Shown here piece by piece: positions 6,735 through 47,919 of a stretch of 49,781 nucleotides of DNA. This DNA comes from Anaerolineae bacterium (GTDB lineage Bacteria; Chloroflexota; Anaerolineae; Aggregatilineales; Aggregatilineaceae). Location: assembly GCA_023382715.1 (NCBI GenBank), contig JAHDWP010000024.1, forward strand, positions 1-49,781, written 5' to 3'. The stretch's first letter is position 1. Each line of letters starts with the position of its first letter. Both the position numbers and the translations under genes were made by a program. Under the pieces are notes generated by a model, which was given only the letters and a program-made list of their open reading frames with translations, was not told the origin of the DNA and did no database searches.

Positions 6735-6755
6735 GGGCGCAGCAGAGCAGCGCCC
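6735..6755. repeat. D-family short palindrome (copy D1)
   Basis: GGGCGC and GCGCCC flank a 9-nt loop AGCAGAGCA. The same 21-mer recurs at 16278, 32860 and 37978. This copy lies between mreD and mrdA. Confidence 0.8.
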
Positions 6756-16277: not shown

Positions 16278-16298
16278 GGGCGCAGCAGAGCAGCGCCC
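16278..16298. repeat. D-family palindrome (copy D2) abutting a stop codon
   Basis: The 21-mer with GGGCGC/GCGCCC arms ends one base before the aldehyde dehydrogenase stop codon. The shared flanking CCCTACC on the plus strand encodes that TAG on the minus strand. Confidence 0.8.
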
Positions 16299-17968: not shown

Positions 17969-17993
17969 CGTAGGGCGGCAATACGCCCCTACG
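17969..17993. repeat. E-family palindrome (copy E1, internally deleted)
   Basis: CGTAGGG...CCCCTACG around GCAATAC; compared with the perfect copy at 22601 it lacks part of the left arm. The bases after it (GGAGGCATGTCGCCAAC) resemble those after E2. Confidence 0.65.
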
Positions 17994-18060
17994 GAGGCAT
18001 GTCGCCAACGATATCTCTTGTGAGGGAGGGGTTTGGGATGGTGGCACTCTCTAAAAACCA

Positions 18061-18091: not shown

Positions 18092-18141
18092 TCTCGGAAG
18101 CCTATGTCGGGGCCGGGCGCAGCGGAGCAGCCCCCCCCACG

Positions 18142-22379: not shown

Positions 22380-22411
22380 TGTAGGGGCGGGTTTGCGGGT
22401 CCGCCCCTACA
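22380..22411. repeat. E-family palindrome (copy E3)
   Basis: TGTAGGGGCGG and CCGCCCCTACA form an 11-bp stem with a 10-nt loop. Confidence 0.75.
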
Positions 22412-22548: not shown

Positions 22549-22580
22549 GACTTCCGAAGTCTCCGGAGACTTCGGAAGTC
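22549..22580. repeat. C-family palindrome (copy C2, perfect)
   Basis: A perfect 32-bp palindrome with arm GACTTCCGAAGTCTCC. Confidence 0.9.
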
Positions 22581-22600
22581 TGCTCGCCGAGCGCCTGCTC

Positions 22601-22628
22601 GTAGGGGCGTATGGCCATACGCCCCTAC
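22601..22628. repeat. E-family palindrome (copy E2, perfect)
   Basis: A perfect 28-bp palindrome with arm GTAGGGGCGTATGG. Adjacent to C2. Confidence 0.9.
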
Positions 22629-25728: not shown

Positions 25729-25841
25729 GCAGAACTCGCGCGGCGTATGGGGACGGGGGCCTTCGACCACTGCCTGACAACTCGTTCATGACCCCCCTTC
25801 GCCAGGGTAATCGCAGCAAAAGACGCTGGGGCTGCGCGGGT

Positions 25842-25937
25842 TGACCTCACCCCCGCTCGGCGCTGACGCGCCTCGTCGCCCCCTCGCCGACGCGGAGAGG
25901 GGGCAAGCCAAGCGTAGCGCGGCTGGGGGTGAGGTCA
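25842..25937. repeat. B-family branched palindrome (copy B2)
   Basis: Perfect 13-bp outer arms TGACCTCACCCCC / GGGGGTGAGGTCA. Inside: GGCGC/GCGCC hairpin, CCCCCTC/GAGGGGG hairpin and an AGCC/GGCT arm. This is the cleanest copy of the family. Confidence 0.88.
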
Positions 25938-26013: not shown

Positions 26014-26058
26014 AGCGCACCAGAGCGGAAATGAGCATCCAGTCTGGCCTGGTTCGGC

Positions 26059-26156
26059 TCCCCATCCCCGGCCCTTCCCCCACGAGGGGGAAAGGGAGAA
26101 GAGCGCCTCCGCTGAGCTTCCCCCTCCTTGTGGGGGAGGGGTTTGGGGTGGGGGGC
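26059..26156. repeat. A-family element (copy A2)
   Basis: CCCCATCCCCGG...GGGGTTTGGGGTGGGG outer pairing with inner CCTTCCCCC/GGGGGAAAGG and CCCCCTCC/GGGGGAGGGG hairpins. The distal TTTGAGAAG ends are absent. Confidence 0.8.
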
Positions 26157-30296: not shown

Positions 30297-30322
30297 GTGG
30301 GGCGTATCGCCATACACCCCTG
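30297..30322. repeat. E-family palindrome (copy E4, diverged)
   Basis: GTGGGGCGTATCGC / CATACACCCCTG, a diverged relative of E2. Confidence 0.6.
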
Positions 30323-30336
30323 CCTGGGCACCCCCA

Positions 30337-32587: not shown

Positions 32588-32734
32588 GGGCCGTTTGAGA
32601 AGTTGTGCGCCAGCCCTTGCCCCCCATCCCCGGCCCTTCCCCCGCGAGGGGGGAAGGGAGAAAAGCGCGCTTGCTAAGCCCCTCCCTCCCTGTCAGGGGG
32701 TTTGGGGTGGGGGAAAACAGCTTCTCAAAAGGTC
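32588..32734. repeat. A-family element (copy A3, full length)
   Basis: Ends GGCCGTTTGAGAAG and CTTCTCAAAAGG; inner CCCTTCCCCC/GGGGGAAGGG and CCTCCC/GGGAGG hairpins and a CCCCATCCCC/GGGGTGGGGG stem. About 147 bp. Confidence 0.85.
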
Positions 32735-32859: not shown

Positions 32860-32880
32860 GGGCGCAGCAGAGCAGCGCCC
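32860..32880. repeat. D-family palindrome (copy D3)
   Basis: Identical 21-mer to D1, D2 and D4, seven bases after B3. Confidence 0.85.
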
Positions 32881-36008: not shown

Positions 36009-39000
36009 TCACTCCACGACGACGTTCTCCGCGCCGAGCATGTTGGCGGCGAAGGTCAGGATGTCCTCGTTGATCCGGATCAGGTTGTTCGGGAACTCCA
36101 GGCAGGCCCGCTTTCCCTCGCCCTCCAGGATGAAGCGGAACCGATCCCGGCCCGGATACTGCGTCAGGAAGCCGTGCAGCCGGCGCAGCTTGCGGCGGTC
36201 GGCGGTGGAGTCGCCGGAACGAGCGATGGTCAGGGTCAGCAGGCGGCTGGCGGCGGGCGCGGTGCCGTGCGCTGGCTCGGTGGGCCGCTGGCGCCGCATC
36301 GGGACGGGCGGCAGGGCGTCGGCATCGGCGGGCGTCGCCGGCGGTTGGACGGGGGCCGGCGGGCGCACGCGCCCCAGCTCGTCGAAGGCGGATTCGCGCC
36401 GCGAGGCTTTCTCCCCGTCCGGCGGGCGGACTTTCGTCGTCGGGTCGGTCGCCTCCTGAGCGTCGCCGTATGGCTCCGGCGACCAACTGCCCGCCCAGTC
36501 TTCTTCCAACCAGCCGGGCATCTCGCGATCGGTAAGCAGCCCCGAAGGCGGCGCGCTGTGCGCGGGGGAAGGGGGAGTGATCGGCGGCGTGTCGGGCGCG
36601 CTGGCCCCGGCTGAGGCCGGGATGCCCGGCTCGGTCACCGGCGTGGGCTGCTCGTTTTCGTGGGCAGCGGCCATCTCGCCGGTCTCCTCGTCAAAGGGGC
36701 CGTCGTCTTCGCCGTCGGCGTCCTCATCGAGGGCCGCCGGACTTTCGTCGGCGATCCACGATAGCTGCAGGTCGTCCAGGCTGGGTGGGCGTTCGGCGGC
36801 GGCGATCACGTCGAAGTTCTGCGTCGCCGAATCCACGATGACCTGTATATCGCCGCGCGAGGTGTCCGCTTTGCCCTTGACGACCAGCATGACGTCTTCG
36901 CCCACGATGTCCTGATACTGCGTCCAGATGCGCGGGAACATGACCGCGCTGATCGTGCCGGTGATGTCCTCGATGGTCAGGACGGCCATCGCGTCGCCAC
37001 GCTTGGTGAAGAAAGTGCGCAGACTGGTGATCAGCCCGGCGATAGTCACCAACTGGCCGTTGACCGCTTCGCCCGCCCCGATCAGCTCGGCGTTGGTGTG
37101 GGTGATGATCTGCTGAAGTTGACCCGTCACCGACTTGAGCGGGTGATCGGTCACGTAGAGGCCGACCAGCTCGCGCTCCCAGTTGAGCATCTCGCGCGGG
37201 GAGATCGGGTCCACGTCGTGCAGGCTGGCCAGGATGCTCTCCTGCGCGCCGAAGCTGACGCCCGTCCCCGCGCCGAAGAGACTCATCTGCCCGGCGTCTT
37301 TGGCTTTGTGGTGGTCGGCGGAGAAGCTGACAATGCGATCCAGCGCGGCCAGCAGGGCGGGCCGGTTAGCGAATTCGTCCAGCGCGCCGACCTTGATCAA
37401 CGACTCCAGCGCGCGCTTGTTGACGATGCGCGCGTCCACGCGCCGGCAGAAATCGTCCAGATCGCGGAAGGGGCCGCCCTCGGCGCGGGCGTTGAGGATG
37501 TGCTCCAGCGGCCCGACGCCCACGTTCTTGATCGCGCCCAGCCCGAAGCGGATGGCGCGTTGGCCGTCCGGCTGCACCTGGATGCTGAAGTCCAGCTCGC
37601 TGCTGTTGACGGTGGGCGGCAGCACGGCGATGCCCATGCGAGTGCAGTCGGCGGCGAAGAGGCCGATCTTGGTGGAGTCGGCGCGGTGCACGCTCATCAG
37701 GGCGGCCATGTACTCGTGCGGATAGTGGCACTTCAGGTATGCCGTCTGGCAGGTGAGCACGGCGTAGTCGGCGGCGTGGGAGTTGTGCACGAGGATGTCG
37801 TTGGCGACGAAATTGTGTGTATCCGGCACGGTCAGGTCGTAGGTCTGCGCTTCACCCGCGTACTCGATGGCGGCGATCTTGTCCCAGTACACGTCGCTGG
37901 CGGCGAGGGCCGGATCGCTGCTGGCCGGCATTTCTTCTCCAGCCATCGGTAGGGGCGTATTGCAATACGCTCCCACAGGGCGCAGCAGAGCAGCGCCCCT
38001 ACCTGATCGGCGCAGCGGAGATTCACCGGCGGTCTCCCGATCTTGATACGGAACAGCAAACACTGTCTGCGACTCCTGCTCAAGATCGAAGCGCACTCCC
38101 TCTGCTGGTTGGCTGAGGCATGTGATAGTGGACGTGCTTTCTGCGCACTGTACGCGGCAGAGGACGCCCAGCCGCAGCCATAGATGCCGAAGTTGCTGTG
38201 CCAGGGGGTGAGAAGCTGTCGTCAGTTGGCCGCCGGTCGCGCTGTGATCCCACAGCCGCGCAAGCAGATGATCAATGTATGAGTTCGCCAGCCCGAAAAC
38301 CTCGCCGGGCAGAGCGGTTGTCGGACAGTCCAGCATCAGCGAATCGGCGAGGGCGTTGATTACCTGCACCGGCCATTCCTCCCGACCCTCCACCGGAATG
38401 CGGCGGGGCACGGCGATGGCGTCGCCGGCGCTCAGCTCGCCCAGCCGCCGCCAGCCGTCGAACGTGTAAAACGGATGGTTGGCGGTCGCTGTGATCTGGC
38501 GTCCGAGTTGGGTCGTCAGGCGGTAGACCGGCTTGACGCCGTTCGCCACCACCTGCGTGACCGGGCCGGGCCGAAGCGCAAGCTGATCCAGGTCGCAGGT
38601 GAGCGTATGCTCGACCGTGGCGGTCCCCTGGGCCAGATCGCCCACGCACACCAGTCGCCCGCTCGCTGCGTCCACGATTTCGGTCTCGCCCACGACGCAC
38701 TTGTTAAACCCATAGCGCGCGAAGTATTCGATGTCGTCGAAAATGGCGTTGGCCGTGTCGGGGTCTACGCCGTGCTGCGGGCCGCGCTCGATGAAGATCG
38801 TGCGGTGCTGGAGCAGGTCTTCCTTCTTCTTCTTGGACACAGCGCGGCGCATCAGGTCGGCTTCGCCGAGCGAGTAGCCGAAAAGCTCCGCGCCGATCTG
38901 CATGATCTGCTCCTGGTAGACGATGATGCCGTAGGTCTCTTCCAGGATGGGCTTGAGCTTCTCGTGCTTATACTCGATGGCCTCGCTGTTGTGCAGGCGG

Positions 39001-41015
39001 CGATTGTAGGCGGGAATGTTTTCCATCGGGCCGGGGCGGTAGAGCGCGATGCCGGCGACGATATGCTCGAACTTCTGCGGGCGCATGTCGGTCAACATGC
39101 GCCGCATCCCCTGCGATTCCAGTTGGAAGACGCCGATCGTCTCGCCGCGCCCCAGCATCTCGAACATCGCGGCCATCCTGCGCGAGATCTCCGGATCGTC
39201 GGAATCGGAGCGGTAGGGGATGTTCGACAGATCGTAGCGAACGCCGTGATACTGCTCGATCATCTCGCACGCTCGGCGCATGATGGTCAGCGTGGACAGG
39301 CCGAGGAAGTCCACCTTCAGCAGCTTGATGAACTCGCAGGTCTCCATCGGAAACTGAGTGACCATTTTCACCGGCGCATCTTCTGGCGAGCCTTTGGTGG
39401 GCCGGTGCAGGGGGATGTACTCGACCAGCGGCTTGTCGGCGACGATGATGCCGGCGGCGTGCGTGCTGACGTGGCGCGTCACGCCCTCAAGCTGGCGCGC
39501 CGTGTCAATCAATCGGCGCGCAGTCTTGTCGGTTTCGTAGGCCGTTTTCAGGTCGGGCAGCGCTTTTTCCGGATCGTCGCCCAACGCATCCTTGAACTTG
39601 ATCGGCTTGCCCGCGCCGGGGATCAGGCGGGCGATGCGGTCCACCTCGGTTGAGGGCAGGTCGAGCACGCGGCCCACATCGCGGATGGCCGCTTTGCTGC
39701 CCAGCGTCCCGAAGGTGATGATGGCGGCGACCTTGTCTTCGCCATACTTCTGCGCGCAGTACTGGATCATCTCGGCGCGGCGGTCTTCGGGGTAATCCAG
39801 ATCAATATCGGGCATAGAAACGCGGCCCGGAGTGAGGAAGCGCTCGAAGAGCAGGCCGTTGGCCAGCGGCTCAATATTGGTGATGCCCAAGCAGTAGGCG
39901 GCCACGCTGCCCGCGCCGGAGCCGCGCACGTTCCACCAGATGTCGGCGTGGCGGGCGAACTCGCACAGATCCCACACGATCAGGAAATAGGTGTCGAAGC
40001 CCATCTCGTGGATCATGCGCAGTTCATAATCCAGCCGCGCGCGGATCACAGGCTCGCTGGCCCGCGCGCCGTAGCGCCAGCCCAGGCCGCGCTCGCACAG
40101 GTAGCGCAGATACGTCTCGGCGCTGTGCCCCGCCGGCACCGGGAAGATGGGCAGATGGTAGTCGTCCGAATCCAGGTTCAGGTTGCACATCTCGGCGATG
40201 CGCAGCGTGTTGGTCAGCGCCTCTGGTATCTCGCCGAACAGCCGCCACATCTCCTGAGCGGTGCGCAGGTGAAAGGTCTGGCTCTCGAAGCGCAGCCGGT
40301 TCCGTTCGGCCTTGACGTTGCCCGTCTGGATGCACAGCAGGGTATCGTGCGCGTCGTAGTCCTCTTCGAGCACGTAGTGCACGTCGTTGGTGGCCACGAG
40401 CGGGACCTGGCCATAGCCCTGCCGCTCCAGCAGCCAGCGGTTGAGGACGTGCAACTGCTCGATGTGGTGGTGTTGCAGCTCCAGGAAGAAGTTCTCACGC
40501 CCGAAGACATCCTGGTACCAGCCGATGCGCTCCAGGGCTTCGGCCTCGCGGCCCTGCTCGACCAGGCGCGGAATCTCGGCGGCCAGGCAGCCAGAGGTGG
40601 CGATCAGCCCTTCGGCGTGCTGGGCCAGCAGGTCATGATCCACGCGCGGGCGGTAGTAGTAGCCTTCGAGCTGGGCTGCCGAGGCCAGCCGCAGCAGGTT
40701 CTTATAGCCGGTCTGGTCGCGCGCCAGCAGCAGCAGGTGATAGGGCTTGCTGTCCAGCTCGTTGTCGCGGTCGAAGCGGGCGCGGCCCCACGGGGTGAGG
40801 TACGCTTCCATGCCGATGATCGGCTTGACGCCCTCGGCGCAGCAAGCCCGGTAGAAATCAATCACGCCGAACATCGCCCCGTGATCGGTGATGGCCAGGG
40901 CGGGCATGTCCAGCTCTTTGGCCCGTCCGACCAGCCGGTTGATCTGGCTCAGACCGTCGAGCAGGCTATATTCGGTATGGACGTGCAGGTGGACGAAGTT
41001 GGGCGCGTCCGGCAT
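36009..41015 (-). CDS. dnaE: DNA polymerase III alpha subunit with an intein
   Basis: Replicative polymerase precursor, 1668 residues. PHP domain HLHVHTEYSLLDG and ITDHGAMFG; palm motif PDIDLDYPEDRR (Asp403, Asp405); YGFNK motif interrupted by the intein at residues 773-1078; then SHAADYA, helix-hairpin-helix region and OB fold (GQLVTIAGLITSLRTFFTK). A Pro/acid-rich linker of about 160 residues (roughly 1425-1588) precedes a C-terminal domain (TLTIARSGDSTADRRKLRRL). After splicing the enzyme would be 1362 residues. ATG 41015 gives the family N-terminus. No exonuclease domain is fused, as in DnaE1-type enzymes. A TATAAT lies upstream at 41073. Confidence 0.96.
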   Translation of the reverse strand: MPDAPNFVHLHVHTEYSLLDGLSQINRLVGRAKELDMPALAITDHGAMFGVIDFYRACCAEGVKPIIGMEAYLTPWGRARFDRDNELDSKPYHLLLLARDQTGYKNLLRLASAAQLEGYYYRPRVDHDLLAQHAEGLIATSGCLAAEIPRLVEQGREAEALERIGWYQDVFGRENFFLELQHHHIEQLHVLNRWLLERQGYGQVPLVATNDVHYVLEEDYDAHDTLLCIQTGNVKAERNRLRFESQTFHLRTAQEMWRLFGEIPEALTNTLRIAEMCNLNLDSDDYHLPIFPVPAGHSAETYLRYLCERGLGWRYGARASEPVIRARLDYELRMIHEMGFDTYFLIVWDLCEFARHADIWWNVRGSGAGSVAAYCLGITNIEPLANGLLFERFLTPGRVSMPDIDLDYPEDRRAEMIQYCAQKYGEDKVAAIITFGTLGSKAAIRDVGRVLDLPSTEVDRIARLIPGAGKPIKFKDALGDDPEKALPDLKTAYETDKTARRLIDTARQLEGVTRHVSTHAAGIIVADKPLVEYIPLHRPTKGSPEDAPVKMVTQFPMETCEFIKLLKVDFLGLSTLTIMRRACEMIEQYHGVRYDLSNIPYRSDSDDPEISRRMAAMFEMLGRGETIGVFQLESQGMRRMLTDMRPQKFEHIVAGIALYRPGPMENIPAYNRRLHNSEAIEYKHEKLKPILEETYGIIVYQEQIMQIGAELFGYSLGEADLMRRAVSKKKKEDLLQHRTIFIERGPQHGVDPDTANAIFDDIEYFARYGFNKCVVGETEIVDAASGRLVCVGDLAQGTATVEHTLTCDLDQLALRPGPVTQVVANGVKPVYRLTTQLGRQITATANHPFYTFDGWRRLGELSAGDAIAVPRRIPVEGREEWPVQVINALADSLMLDCPTTALPGEVFGLANSYIDHLLARLWDHSATGGQLTTASHPLAQQLRHLWLRLGVLCRVQCAESTSTITCLSQPAEGVRFDLEQESQTVFAVPYQDRETAGESPLRRSGRGAALLRPVGAYCNTPLPMAGEEMPASSDPALAASDVYWDKIAAIEYAGEAQTYDLTVPDTHNFVANDILVHNSHAADYAVLTCQTAYLKCHYPHEYMAALMSVHRADSTKIGLFAADCTRMGIAVLPPTVNSSELDFSIQVQPDGQRAIRFGLGAIKNVGVGPLEHILNARAEGGPFRDLDDFCRRVDARIVNKRALESLIKVGALDEFANRPALLAALDRIVSFSADHHKAKDAGQMSLFGAGTGVSFGAQESILASLHDVDPISPREMLNWERELVGLYVTDHPLKSVTGQLQQIITHTNAELIGAGEAVNGQLVTIAGLITSLRTFFTKRGDAMAVLTIEDITGTISAVMFPRIWTQYQDIVGEDVMLVVKGKADTSRGDIQVIVDSATQNFDVIAAAERPPSLDDLQLSWIADESPAALDEDADGEDDGPFDEETGEMAAAHENEQPTPVTEPGIPASAGASAPDTPPITPPSPAHSAPPSGLLTDREMPGWLEEDWAGSWSPEPYGDAQEATDPTTKVRPPDGEKASRRESAFDELGRVRPPAPVQPPATPADADALPPVPMRRQRPTEPAHGTAPAASRLLTLTIARSGDSTADRRKLRRLHGFLTQYPGRDRFRFILEGEGKRACLEFPNNLIRINEDILTFAANMLGAENVVVE
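37782..38699 (-). mobile_element. DnaE intein with decayed homing-endonuclease region
   Basis: The 306-residue insertion starts at Cys773 directly after YGFNK and ends ILVHN before Ser1079, so splice chemistry residues Cys1, His-Asn and Ser+1 are present. Hint blocks: N-terminal CVVGETEIVDAASGRLV; block B ATANHPFYTFDGWRRLGEL; C-terminal TYDLTVPDTHNFVAND. The middle (about 110-190) keeps a faint DOD-endonuclease pattern (ARLWDHSATGG, LWLRLGVL) but lacks the acidic LAGLIDADG residues, so homing is probably lost. Residues about 233-251 derive from a palindromic repeat. Confidence 0.92.
37948..38003. repeat. Composite E+D palindrome inside the DnaE intein (E5/D4)
   Basis: Outer arms GGTAGGGGCG (37948-37957) and CGCCCCTACC (37994-38003) enclose the E palindrome TATTGCAATA and the D 21-mer (37978-37998). 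On the coding strand it is read as GRGAALLRPVGAYCNTPL without a stop. Confidence 0.88.
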
Positions 41016-46658: not shown

Positions 46659-46688
46659 GAGGCTCCTTCTTTCTGGCGCTGGCGAGTT

Positions 46689-46786
46689 TACCTCACCCCC
46701 GTCTCGGCGCTGACGCGCCTCGACATCCCCTCTCCATGCATGGAGAGGGGGAAAGGCCGAGCGCAGCGAGGCTGGGGGTGAGGTCA
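46689..46786. repeat. B-family branched palindrome (copy B4)
   Basis: Outer arms TACCTCACCCCC and GGGGGTGAGGT; GGCGCTGACGCGCC hairpin, CCCCTCTCCATGCATGGAGA central palindrome with GGGG, and GGCCGAGCGCAGCGAGGC arm. Same orientation as B2. Lies between mutM and the MBL gene. Confidence 0.87.
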
Positions 46787-46833
46787 ACGCAGCGCCTTCT
46801 TCCCTTGCCGGATGTGCACGTTCATAGCACGTT

Positions 46834-47766: not shown

Positions 47767-47919
47767 AAAGGCCATTCGAGAGGTCGCGCGTCTGCCTTTG
47801 TCCCCCCATCCCCGGCCCTTCCCCCACGAGGGGGGAAGGGAGAAAAACGCGCTCGCTAAGCCCCTCCCTCCTTGTGGGGGAGAGGTTTGGGGTGGGGAGA
47901 ACAGCTTCTCAAATGGCCT
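47767..47919. repeat. A-family element (copy A4, full length)
   Basis: Ends AAAGGCCATTCGAGAGG and CTTCTCAAATGGCC; inner CCCTTCCCCC/GGGGGAAGGG hairpin and CCTCCC/GGGGGAG hairpin. Near identical to A3 in the centre. Confidence 0.87.

Follow-up and report, generated by a model that had tools for sequence, protein, structure and literature searches.

The DNA analyzed here, referred to below as the window, is a stretch of 49,781 nucleotides from an Anaerolineae bacterium of the family Aggregatilineaceae (GenBank assembly GCA_023382715.1, contig JAHDWP010000024.1). Its minus strand carries a dnaE gene for DNA polymerase III alpha, the open reading frame of which contains an intein, and within the coding part of that intein lies a composite of two palindromes, E and D, relatives of which are found elsewhere in the window (Table 1). 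G and L numbers are our labels for genomes and loci.

Table 1. Positions in the window of dnaE, its intein, the composite repeat and the copies of the two halves of the repeat.
Feature	Positions	Strand	Basis or remark
dnaE ORF (DNA polymerase III alpha, intein included)	36009..41015	-	1668 aa; NCBIfam PRK05673 and TIGR00594 above cut-offs
DnaE intein, flanked by YGFNK and SHAAD	37782..38699	-	306 aa; Pfam Intein_splicing 8.6e-22; NCBIfam TIGR01445 and TIGR01443 (both intein ends); Foldseek to solved inteins
N-terminal Hint part, intein residues 1-107	38379..38699	-	pLDDT about 96-98
Residual half of LAGLIDADG endonuclease, residues 108-195	38115..38378	-	Alignment; Pfam LAGLIDADG_3 weak, below cut-off; ordered in model
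Disordered linker with the repeat inside, residues 199-255	37935..38105	-	pLDDT <50 at residues 199-247 and 251-255
C-terminal Hint part, residues 262-306, end ..FVANDILVHN/S	37782..37916	-	Sequence and model
Composite repeat, two GTAG-tagged palindromes head to head (E + D)	37949..38002	.	54 bp; copies, folding
E palindrome, GTAGGGGCGTATTGCAATACGCTCCCAC	37949..37976	+	28 bp, 12/14 pairs kept
D palindrome, GGGCGCAGCAGAGCAGCGCCCCTAC, GTAG plus 21-base hairpin	37978..38002	-	Copies, folding
D copy, exact 21-mer	6735..6755	+	21-mer search of window
D copy, exact 21-mer	16278..16298	+	21-mer search of window
D copy, exact 21-mer	32860..32880	+	21-mer search of window
E relative, GTAGGGCGGCAATACGCCCCTAC	17970..17992	+	Window search
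GTAG-tagged palindrome of E type	22381..22410	+	Window search
E copy, GTAGGGGCGTATGGCCATACGCCCCTAC	22601..22628	+	Window search
Decayed E relative	30297..30323	+	Window search

The splicing residues of the intein are all present (C1, T72-A-N-H75, H305-N306 and Ser+1), which we take to be the Cys1, block B TxxH, C-terminal HN and Ser+1 motifs of a Hint fold. Alignment shows that the first half of its homing endonuclease (HEN) is absent, about 70 amino acids being missing, which makes it a mini-intein, a term used here for inteins in which the HEN has been lost or halved; at 306 aa, versus 420–427 aa in 17 full-length inteins of the same order, it does not hold an intact LAGLIDADG endonuclease. 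Fold prediction without an alignment gave a pLDDT of 31, and the AlphaFold model made from an alignment of 36 inteins was used instead (pLDDT 84, pTM 0.80). In this model residues 1–107 together with 262–306 form the Hint fold and residues 108–195 an ordered residual endonuclease lobe, while the residues encoded by the repeat fall within a predicted disordered linker that has the residual lobe on one side and the last Hint block on the other, in agreement with an earlier, sequence-only reading which had placed the repeat in the variable region just before the C-terminal Hint block. Foldseek returned the Ssp DnaB and Npu DnaB mini-inteins as the best matches, along with homing inteins.

An intein-free dnaE allele at the same site is found in G004 (L288), a member of the same genus whose extein DNA is about 90–92% identical to that of the window, and a full-length intein is found in the close relative G001 (L064, L289), the N-terminal Hint DNA of which is 90% identical to the window's. 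The window and G003 (L062) have a mini-type centre in common where G001 is full-length. The centre and the ends of these three inteins seem, from their sequences, to have had separate histories, the endonuclease having been regained or the centre exchanged.

The sequence-only reading had reported a palindromic repeat at 37948–38003 that is read through without a stop in the DnaE intein, and this sequence is indeed there, the unit proper being two bases shorter and read on the minus strand as GRGAALLRPVGAYCNTPL, intein residues 233–251, stop-free within the dnaE frame. One base separates E from D, and GTAG tags stand at both outer ends of the unit. D is composed of GTAG and a GGGCGC..GCGCCC hairpin, while E, an imperfect palindrome, is tagged at both ends with its inner tag altered to GTGG. 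Folded as single-stranded DNA, the 56-mer forms two hairpins (z = -4.15). An unpaired GTAG tag beside a short stem-loop, many dispersed copies and inverted head-to-head dimers, by which GTAG REPs are recognized, are all found, dimers of about 49–50 bp being present also in G009, G013 and G008. Judged by its tags, short stems and head-to-head dimer form, the 54-bp unit most nearly resembles the GTAG superfamily of REPs.

Copies of both halves are dispersed in the window. Besides the intein copy at 37978, the D 21-mer is exact at each of the three positions that had been listed (6735, 16278 and 32860), and a fifth copy with 2 mismatches lies at 18115, versus a chance mean of 0.09 for matches with up to 3 mismatches. 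The E relatives reported at 17969, 22380, 22601 and 30297 were likewise recovered, at the positions given in Table 1, and GTAGGGGCG has 9 occurrences in the window where 0.47 are expected. A genome-wide BLAST search with a 64-mer (3.88 Mb, 82 contigs) yielded at least 57 places, a lower bound because 40 of the 295 candidates were scored, and at least 29 of these, the intein copy included, span most of both halves with an identity of at least 80% (query start at or before 6, end at or after 51). Thus the genome search that had been proposed as a check found at least 28 further composites rather than none, in support of the claim that a dispersed palindromic element has entered the gene in frame. 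Allowing up to 2 mismatches, the E core has 77 forward and 76 reverse matches in the genome versus 1 and 0 for a reversed control, and exact tag pairs GTAGGGGC..GCCCCTAC number 29 in the source genome with 0 in the control. GTAG tag pairs occur in 104 of the 154 order genomes. As sources of the palindrome, a HEN remnant, low complexity and chance are ruled out by its copy number and by the full-length relatives.

Three other repeats were noted in the window. A palindrome family of about 95 bp, CCTCACCCCC..GGGGGTGAGG, lies at 25839–25936 and 46686–46788 and has many copies; it probably breaks the assembly, since several of the copies sit at contig ends of the source genome. Another palindrome, AGACTTCCGAAGTCTCCGGAGACTTCGGAAGTCT, lies at about 22549–22582, with a relative near 18060 and a similar one near a Y1 locus (L118). 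Direct repeats of 101 nt lie at 26053–26153, 32615–32715 and 47797–47897, the second and third being 70% and 86% identical to the first.

The coding context of the genomic copies was compared by a codon score over 30 loci (26 composites plus 4 partial copies, the intein copy among them), in which only the intein copy was positive in a spanning-frame flank; the score is coarse because it was trained on dnaE exteins alone, and the intein's own upstream flank was itself negative. Among 10 long frames spanning copies at 9 loci, Pfam found domains in 3, each time on the downstream side of the copy alone, as expected if these copies lie ahead of the true start, and found none with domains on both sides. 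By this rough codon score and Pfam on the 10 spanning frames, there is no clear in-gene case among the 29 other loci.

Searches for this intein covered 61 relatives, the family (18 genomes) and the order (154 genomes); 38 of the 154 order-mates gave a match with an E value of 1e-24 or lower. All of the 36 complete inteins in the order are stop-free, 17 being full-length (420–427 aa, with a LAGLIDADG endonuclease) and 19 minis (141–341 aa). The inteins of G002 and G150 run off their contigs; that of G002 was counted as a mini, its linker and element being visible, and that of G150 was left unclassified and uncounted. The linkers of G038 and G110 (7 and 15 residues) fell outside the dispersal search, and these two were counted as minis without a repeat. 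A named set of records was also compiled, with 80 kept of at least 531 candidate loci, 21 of the 80 being dropped as lacking an intein at the site by pattern; 62 relatives from viral contigs were left out of the analysis. Metagenome assemblies underlie the named records and probably the others as well.

In related minis, other palindromes are seen in the DNA immediately ahead of the last Hint block. The inteins of G003 and G002 hold a 95-bp palindrome of the CCTCACCCCC..GGGGGTGAGG family, which as a query gave 92, 54 and 52 matches in G000, G003 and G002, on both strands. The G011 intein holds GTAGGGGCAATTCATGAATTGCCCCTAC, identical to three listed copies on another G011 contig and to copies in G008, G012 and G014. 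Two CCCCCTCTCC-type palindromes with dozens of matches among those listed are present in the G014 intein, together with one GTAG hairpin that has one further place at 90% among the matches listed. Two GTAG elements lie in the G015 intein (eight further places listed for the first, one for the second), two GTAG hairpins, both spanned by three further places, in that of G069, and a GTAG palindrome, with an identical 30-mer elsewhere in the genome, in that of G089. In G067 (L101) the whole linker between the Hint halves, residues 98–148, is a MITE-like element of roughly 135 bp with inverted ends, of which there are three near full-length copies at 68–69% identity and 33 further, partly overlapping, matches. 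The stretch from G066 found only itself in its own genome; it seems to hold a repeat spread among relatives, because it has 6 places in G073, 3 in G102 and 1 in G091. As a separate observation, the G002 intein (L063) has two in-frame stops, in and after its 95-bp palindrome and at a contig end, which may be an assembly effect or mark a broken dnaE.

Dispersal in the host genome was made the main test since a gapless hairpin score misses the window element, E being decayed and D having an inner mismatch. A repeat dispersed in the host genome was found in 9 of 20 minis (the window's own, G002, G003, G011, G014, G015, G067, G069 and G089) versus 0 of 17 full-length inteins (Fisher p = 0.0015). 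When G066, with its repeat dispersed in relatives, is added, the counts become 10 of 20 versus 0 of 17 (Fisher p = 0.0006), and by genus, with genus labels assigned by hand, 6 of 14 versus 0 of 11 (p = 0.02). In about half of the DnaE minis no repeat was found. No second place in its own genome was found for the stretch from any of the 17 full-length inteins (105 nt each) or 9 other minis (120–150 nt), in a search that scored at most 11 candidates per genome versus 40 in the positive searches. In the same control, 26 of 26 stretches found themselves in 26 host genomes, and one weak match in G073 fell on another genome's full-length segment. The 105 nt are those before the last Hint block, and the remainder of each full-length intein was covered by a strict hairpin rule (GTAG plus a perfect 8-bp stem, applied over whole inteins). 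Under this rule a hairpin is present in 5 of 19 complete minis of the order versus 0 of 17 full-length inteins (21,669 nt), with 0 in 79,452 nt of flanks, and in 2 of 15 minis versus 0 of 44 full-length inteins of the named set, which overlaps the order set; the rule misses the window's own decayed element, and both it and the division into full-length and mini were chosen after the first cases had been seen.

Other inteins of the family were also searched. Among its 30 intein loci, 13 others were examined, 5 partial matches (L307, L317–L320) were left out, and the rest are the DnaE intein itself. None of the 13 has a hairpin of score 10 or more, and no GTAG tag was seen in them apart from a lone GTAGGG in L294, so that a tolerant linker alone does not predict insertion.

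How old the insertion is can be approached through G003, the intein of which aligns with that of the window over its full length at 72% identity, while the dnaE exteins of the two genomes differ by about 16–18% in DNA. The sequence-only reading had expected an alignment of related inteins to show a gap in all others at the place of the repeat; this holds for the full-length inteins, which are without the repeat, but not for the congener G003, which has a related, decayed E at the matching place. There E encodes the peptide VGAYRNTAL and keeps 10 of 14 pairs, close to the case of a shared peptide without a nucleotide palindrome that the reading had named as counting against it. Both copies of E share the same change at palindrome base 6 and a similar downstream flank, and the D half is not seen in G003. 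The shared variant base and flank, and the presence of GTAG pairs in the G003 genome (5 pairs), lead us to read E as one old insertion common to both genomes, which on these few sites would have stayed in frame while its palindrome decays.

A tree (INDEPENDENCE) was built for the 36 complete inteins from 135 columns of their splicing parts. Full-length status needs 12 changes on it, at least 5 of them forced by well-supported branches, and repeat-bearing minis (G066 included) need 8, at least 4 of them so forced; the tree as a whole is modestly supported, 7 of its 33 inner branches being starred. The repeat-bearing inteins are scattered over the tree, and this scatter, together with the fact that different genera carry different repeats, supports separate insertions.

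GTAG REPs have been hypothesized to be moved by RAYT transposases, and a RAYT gene with flanking repeats (a REPtron) is described as missing in some species (PMC3733652). Two Y1 loci were found in the source genome, a complete transposase and a domain within a frame of 1256 aa, and no exact GTAGGGGC tag lies within 1.5 kb of either in this incomplete assembly. One tag each, which may be chance, lies within 1.5 kb of the Y1 loci of G011 (L116) and G001 (L126), and no RAYT gene flanked by the same repeats was found in the search for a mobilizing transposase. We presume that the repeat is mobilized as single-stranded DNA by a Y1 (HUH) transposase. As a side observation, a Y1_Tnp domain inside open frames of about 1000–1260 aa recurs across the family (L129 at G000 C26:8655-8939, L123–L126, L130, L131 and L134); frames of the L129 type are perhaps a large fused protein.

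We consider it highly probable that REP and MITE insertions survive in this essential gene because loss of the HEN leaves a tolerant linker and protein splicing removes it. In the window, a gene-free, GTAG-tagged REP dimer of 54 bp would have entered the dnaE mini-intein without breaking its frame, most likely once half of the homing endonuclease was already gone, and come to rest in the flexible linker that leads from the residual endonuclease lobe to the last Hint block. Its 18–19 added residues would leave the splicing fold intact and, with splicing presumably continuing, depart with the intein, and mature DnaE would never carry the insert because the two are removed together. In other lineages this linker, freed of constraint by HEN loss, would have taken up and kept other REP or MITE families; what counts may be that the endonuclease was lost recently and that the linker is still long. 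Against this explanation stand the 13 other intein loci, the half of the DnaE minis in which no repeat was found, the search that yielded no REPtron and the in-frame stops of G002. The larger proposition is that HEN loss makes the mini-intein a recurrent safe harbor: palindromic repeat families unrelated to one another would repeatedly refill the place left by the endonuclease within an essential replication gene, splicing would shield the peptides they encode from selection, and at one fixed position in the protein selfish elements of different kinds would follow each other; this we regard as evenly balanced between true and false.

A serious contender, to which we give just under an even chance, is that the mini-intein linker is no more favored than any unconstrained coding stretch, the excess of repeats reflecting relaxed selection together with the many repeats per genome. 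The predicted disorder of the linker and the abundance of GTAG pairs across the order agree with this, and it is in fact a quieter form of the explanation that we prefer, so that both can hold together; however, with 0 of 29 other loci clearly in a gene by our coarse test, tolerated in-gene copies look rare. That the insertion came first, the repeat striking the endonuclease domain of a full-length intein and inactivating the HEN, after which the rest eroded, appears unlikely. It would account for G014, where much of the second HEN half is retained ahead of the repeats, and for G067, where the repeat occupies the entire gap between the Hint halves, but the expected intermediate is unseen, with a GTAG hairpin in none of the full-length inteins of the two overlapping sets (0 of 17 and 0 of 44), and several minis have neither the first HEN half nor any repeat that we could find. 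Rather improbable as well is a repeat put to use and kept by selection, as the word 'domesticated' in the sequence-only reading would imply if it stands for a benefit to the host, its hairpins or peptide tuning dnaE mRNA, translation pausing or splicing speed: the hairpins are stable, and E, seemingly common to two genomes as diverged as the source genome and G003, has lasted, yet it is decayed in both (12/14 and 10/14 pairs), the peptides are not the same from genus to genus, half of the minis do without a repeat, and the region is predicted to be disordered. A misjoining of the repeat into dnaE during assembly, for which one might cite the metagenomic origin of the named records and the frequency of such repeats at contig ends, is very hard to credit given a frame open across both halves and a G003 intein that aligns along its full length and repeats E with its flank.

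Our preferred explanation, survival in a linker vacated by the endonuclease and removed by splicing, links two selfish elements that were previously studied separately. If it is true, it indicates where tiny non-coding repeats can turn coding harmlessly, it supplies a natural set of tolerated intein inserts that would be useful for placing tags or switches, and it offers a natural experiment in which one protein site can be compared with and without an endonuclease across genera. It also carries a warning, in that short peptides such as VGA..N.PL common to unrelated proteins may be translated repeats rather than homology.

Several known systems invite comparison. GTAG REPs are described as having a terminal GTAG, a stem of 6–13 bp and a short loop, and as dispersed, mostly extragenic and forming head-to-head dimers, with some copies within ORFs (PMC3733652, Di Nocera et al., 2013). 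The window repeat is like them in its end GTAG, short stems, dispersal, head-to-head dimers and in-ORF copy, and unlike them in that its E is tagged at both ends, the comparison being made at the level of the superfamily and not of the 24 numbered families of that paper. The same paper records a REP in the dnaE gene of R. conorii and others in DnaE2 genes, and different REPs at about the same site in recB of X. campestris and X. oryzae, and its main text does not mention inteins (PMC3733652). The sequence-only reading had compared the behavior of the repeat to that of Rickettsia palindromic elements (RPE). As far as their description goes, the likeness stands for behavior, both being palindromic repeats in frame within protein genes, and probably fails for kinship, for the intragenic CGTC repeats, most of which are in R. 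conorii, are equated with RPE-4 and RPE-6 (PMC3733652), which places the Rickettsia elements in the CGTC superfamily while the window repeat is GTAG-like. Furthermore, unlike the RPE, the window repeat has as its host segment an intein, which is removed by protein splicing.

The MITEtron, a MITE carried by a group I intron in the dsrA gene of Thiomargarita (PMC4853749), is also a small mobile repeat housed in a self-splicing element; that is one case in an intron, at the RNA level, whereas the present type is an intein, at the protein level, with several cases. Our literature search of open-licence papers turned up no intein described as containing a REP or MITE, in line with the sequence-only reading, to which none was known. 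The window intein is like mini-inteins without a full HEN, such as the Ssp DnaB mini-intein (PDB 6frg), in its Hint fold and its best Foldseek matches. It differs from the Ssp DnaB mini-intein in retaining half of the endonuclease lobe and a linker derived in part from the repeat. The Trichodesmium DnaB intein has tandem repeats in place of its endonuclease, and it is thus likewise a case of repeat DNA at a former endonuclease, but of tandem repeats and not of dispersed palindromes. REPs in genes were already known, and what we rate as the new part is a self-splicing host segment colonized repeatedly after loss of its endonuclease.
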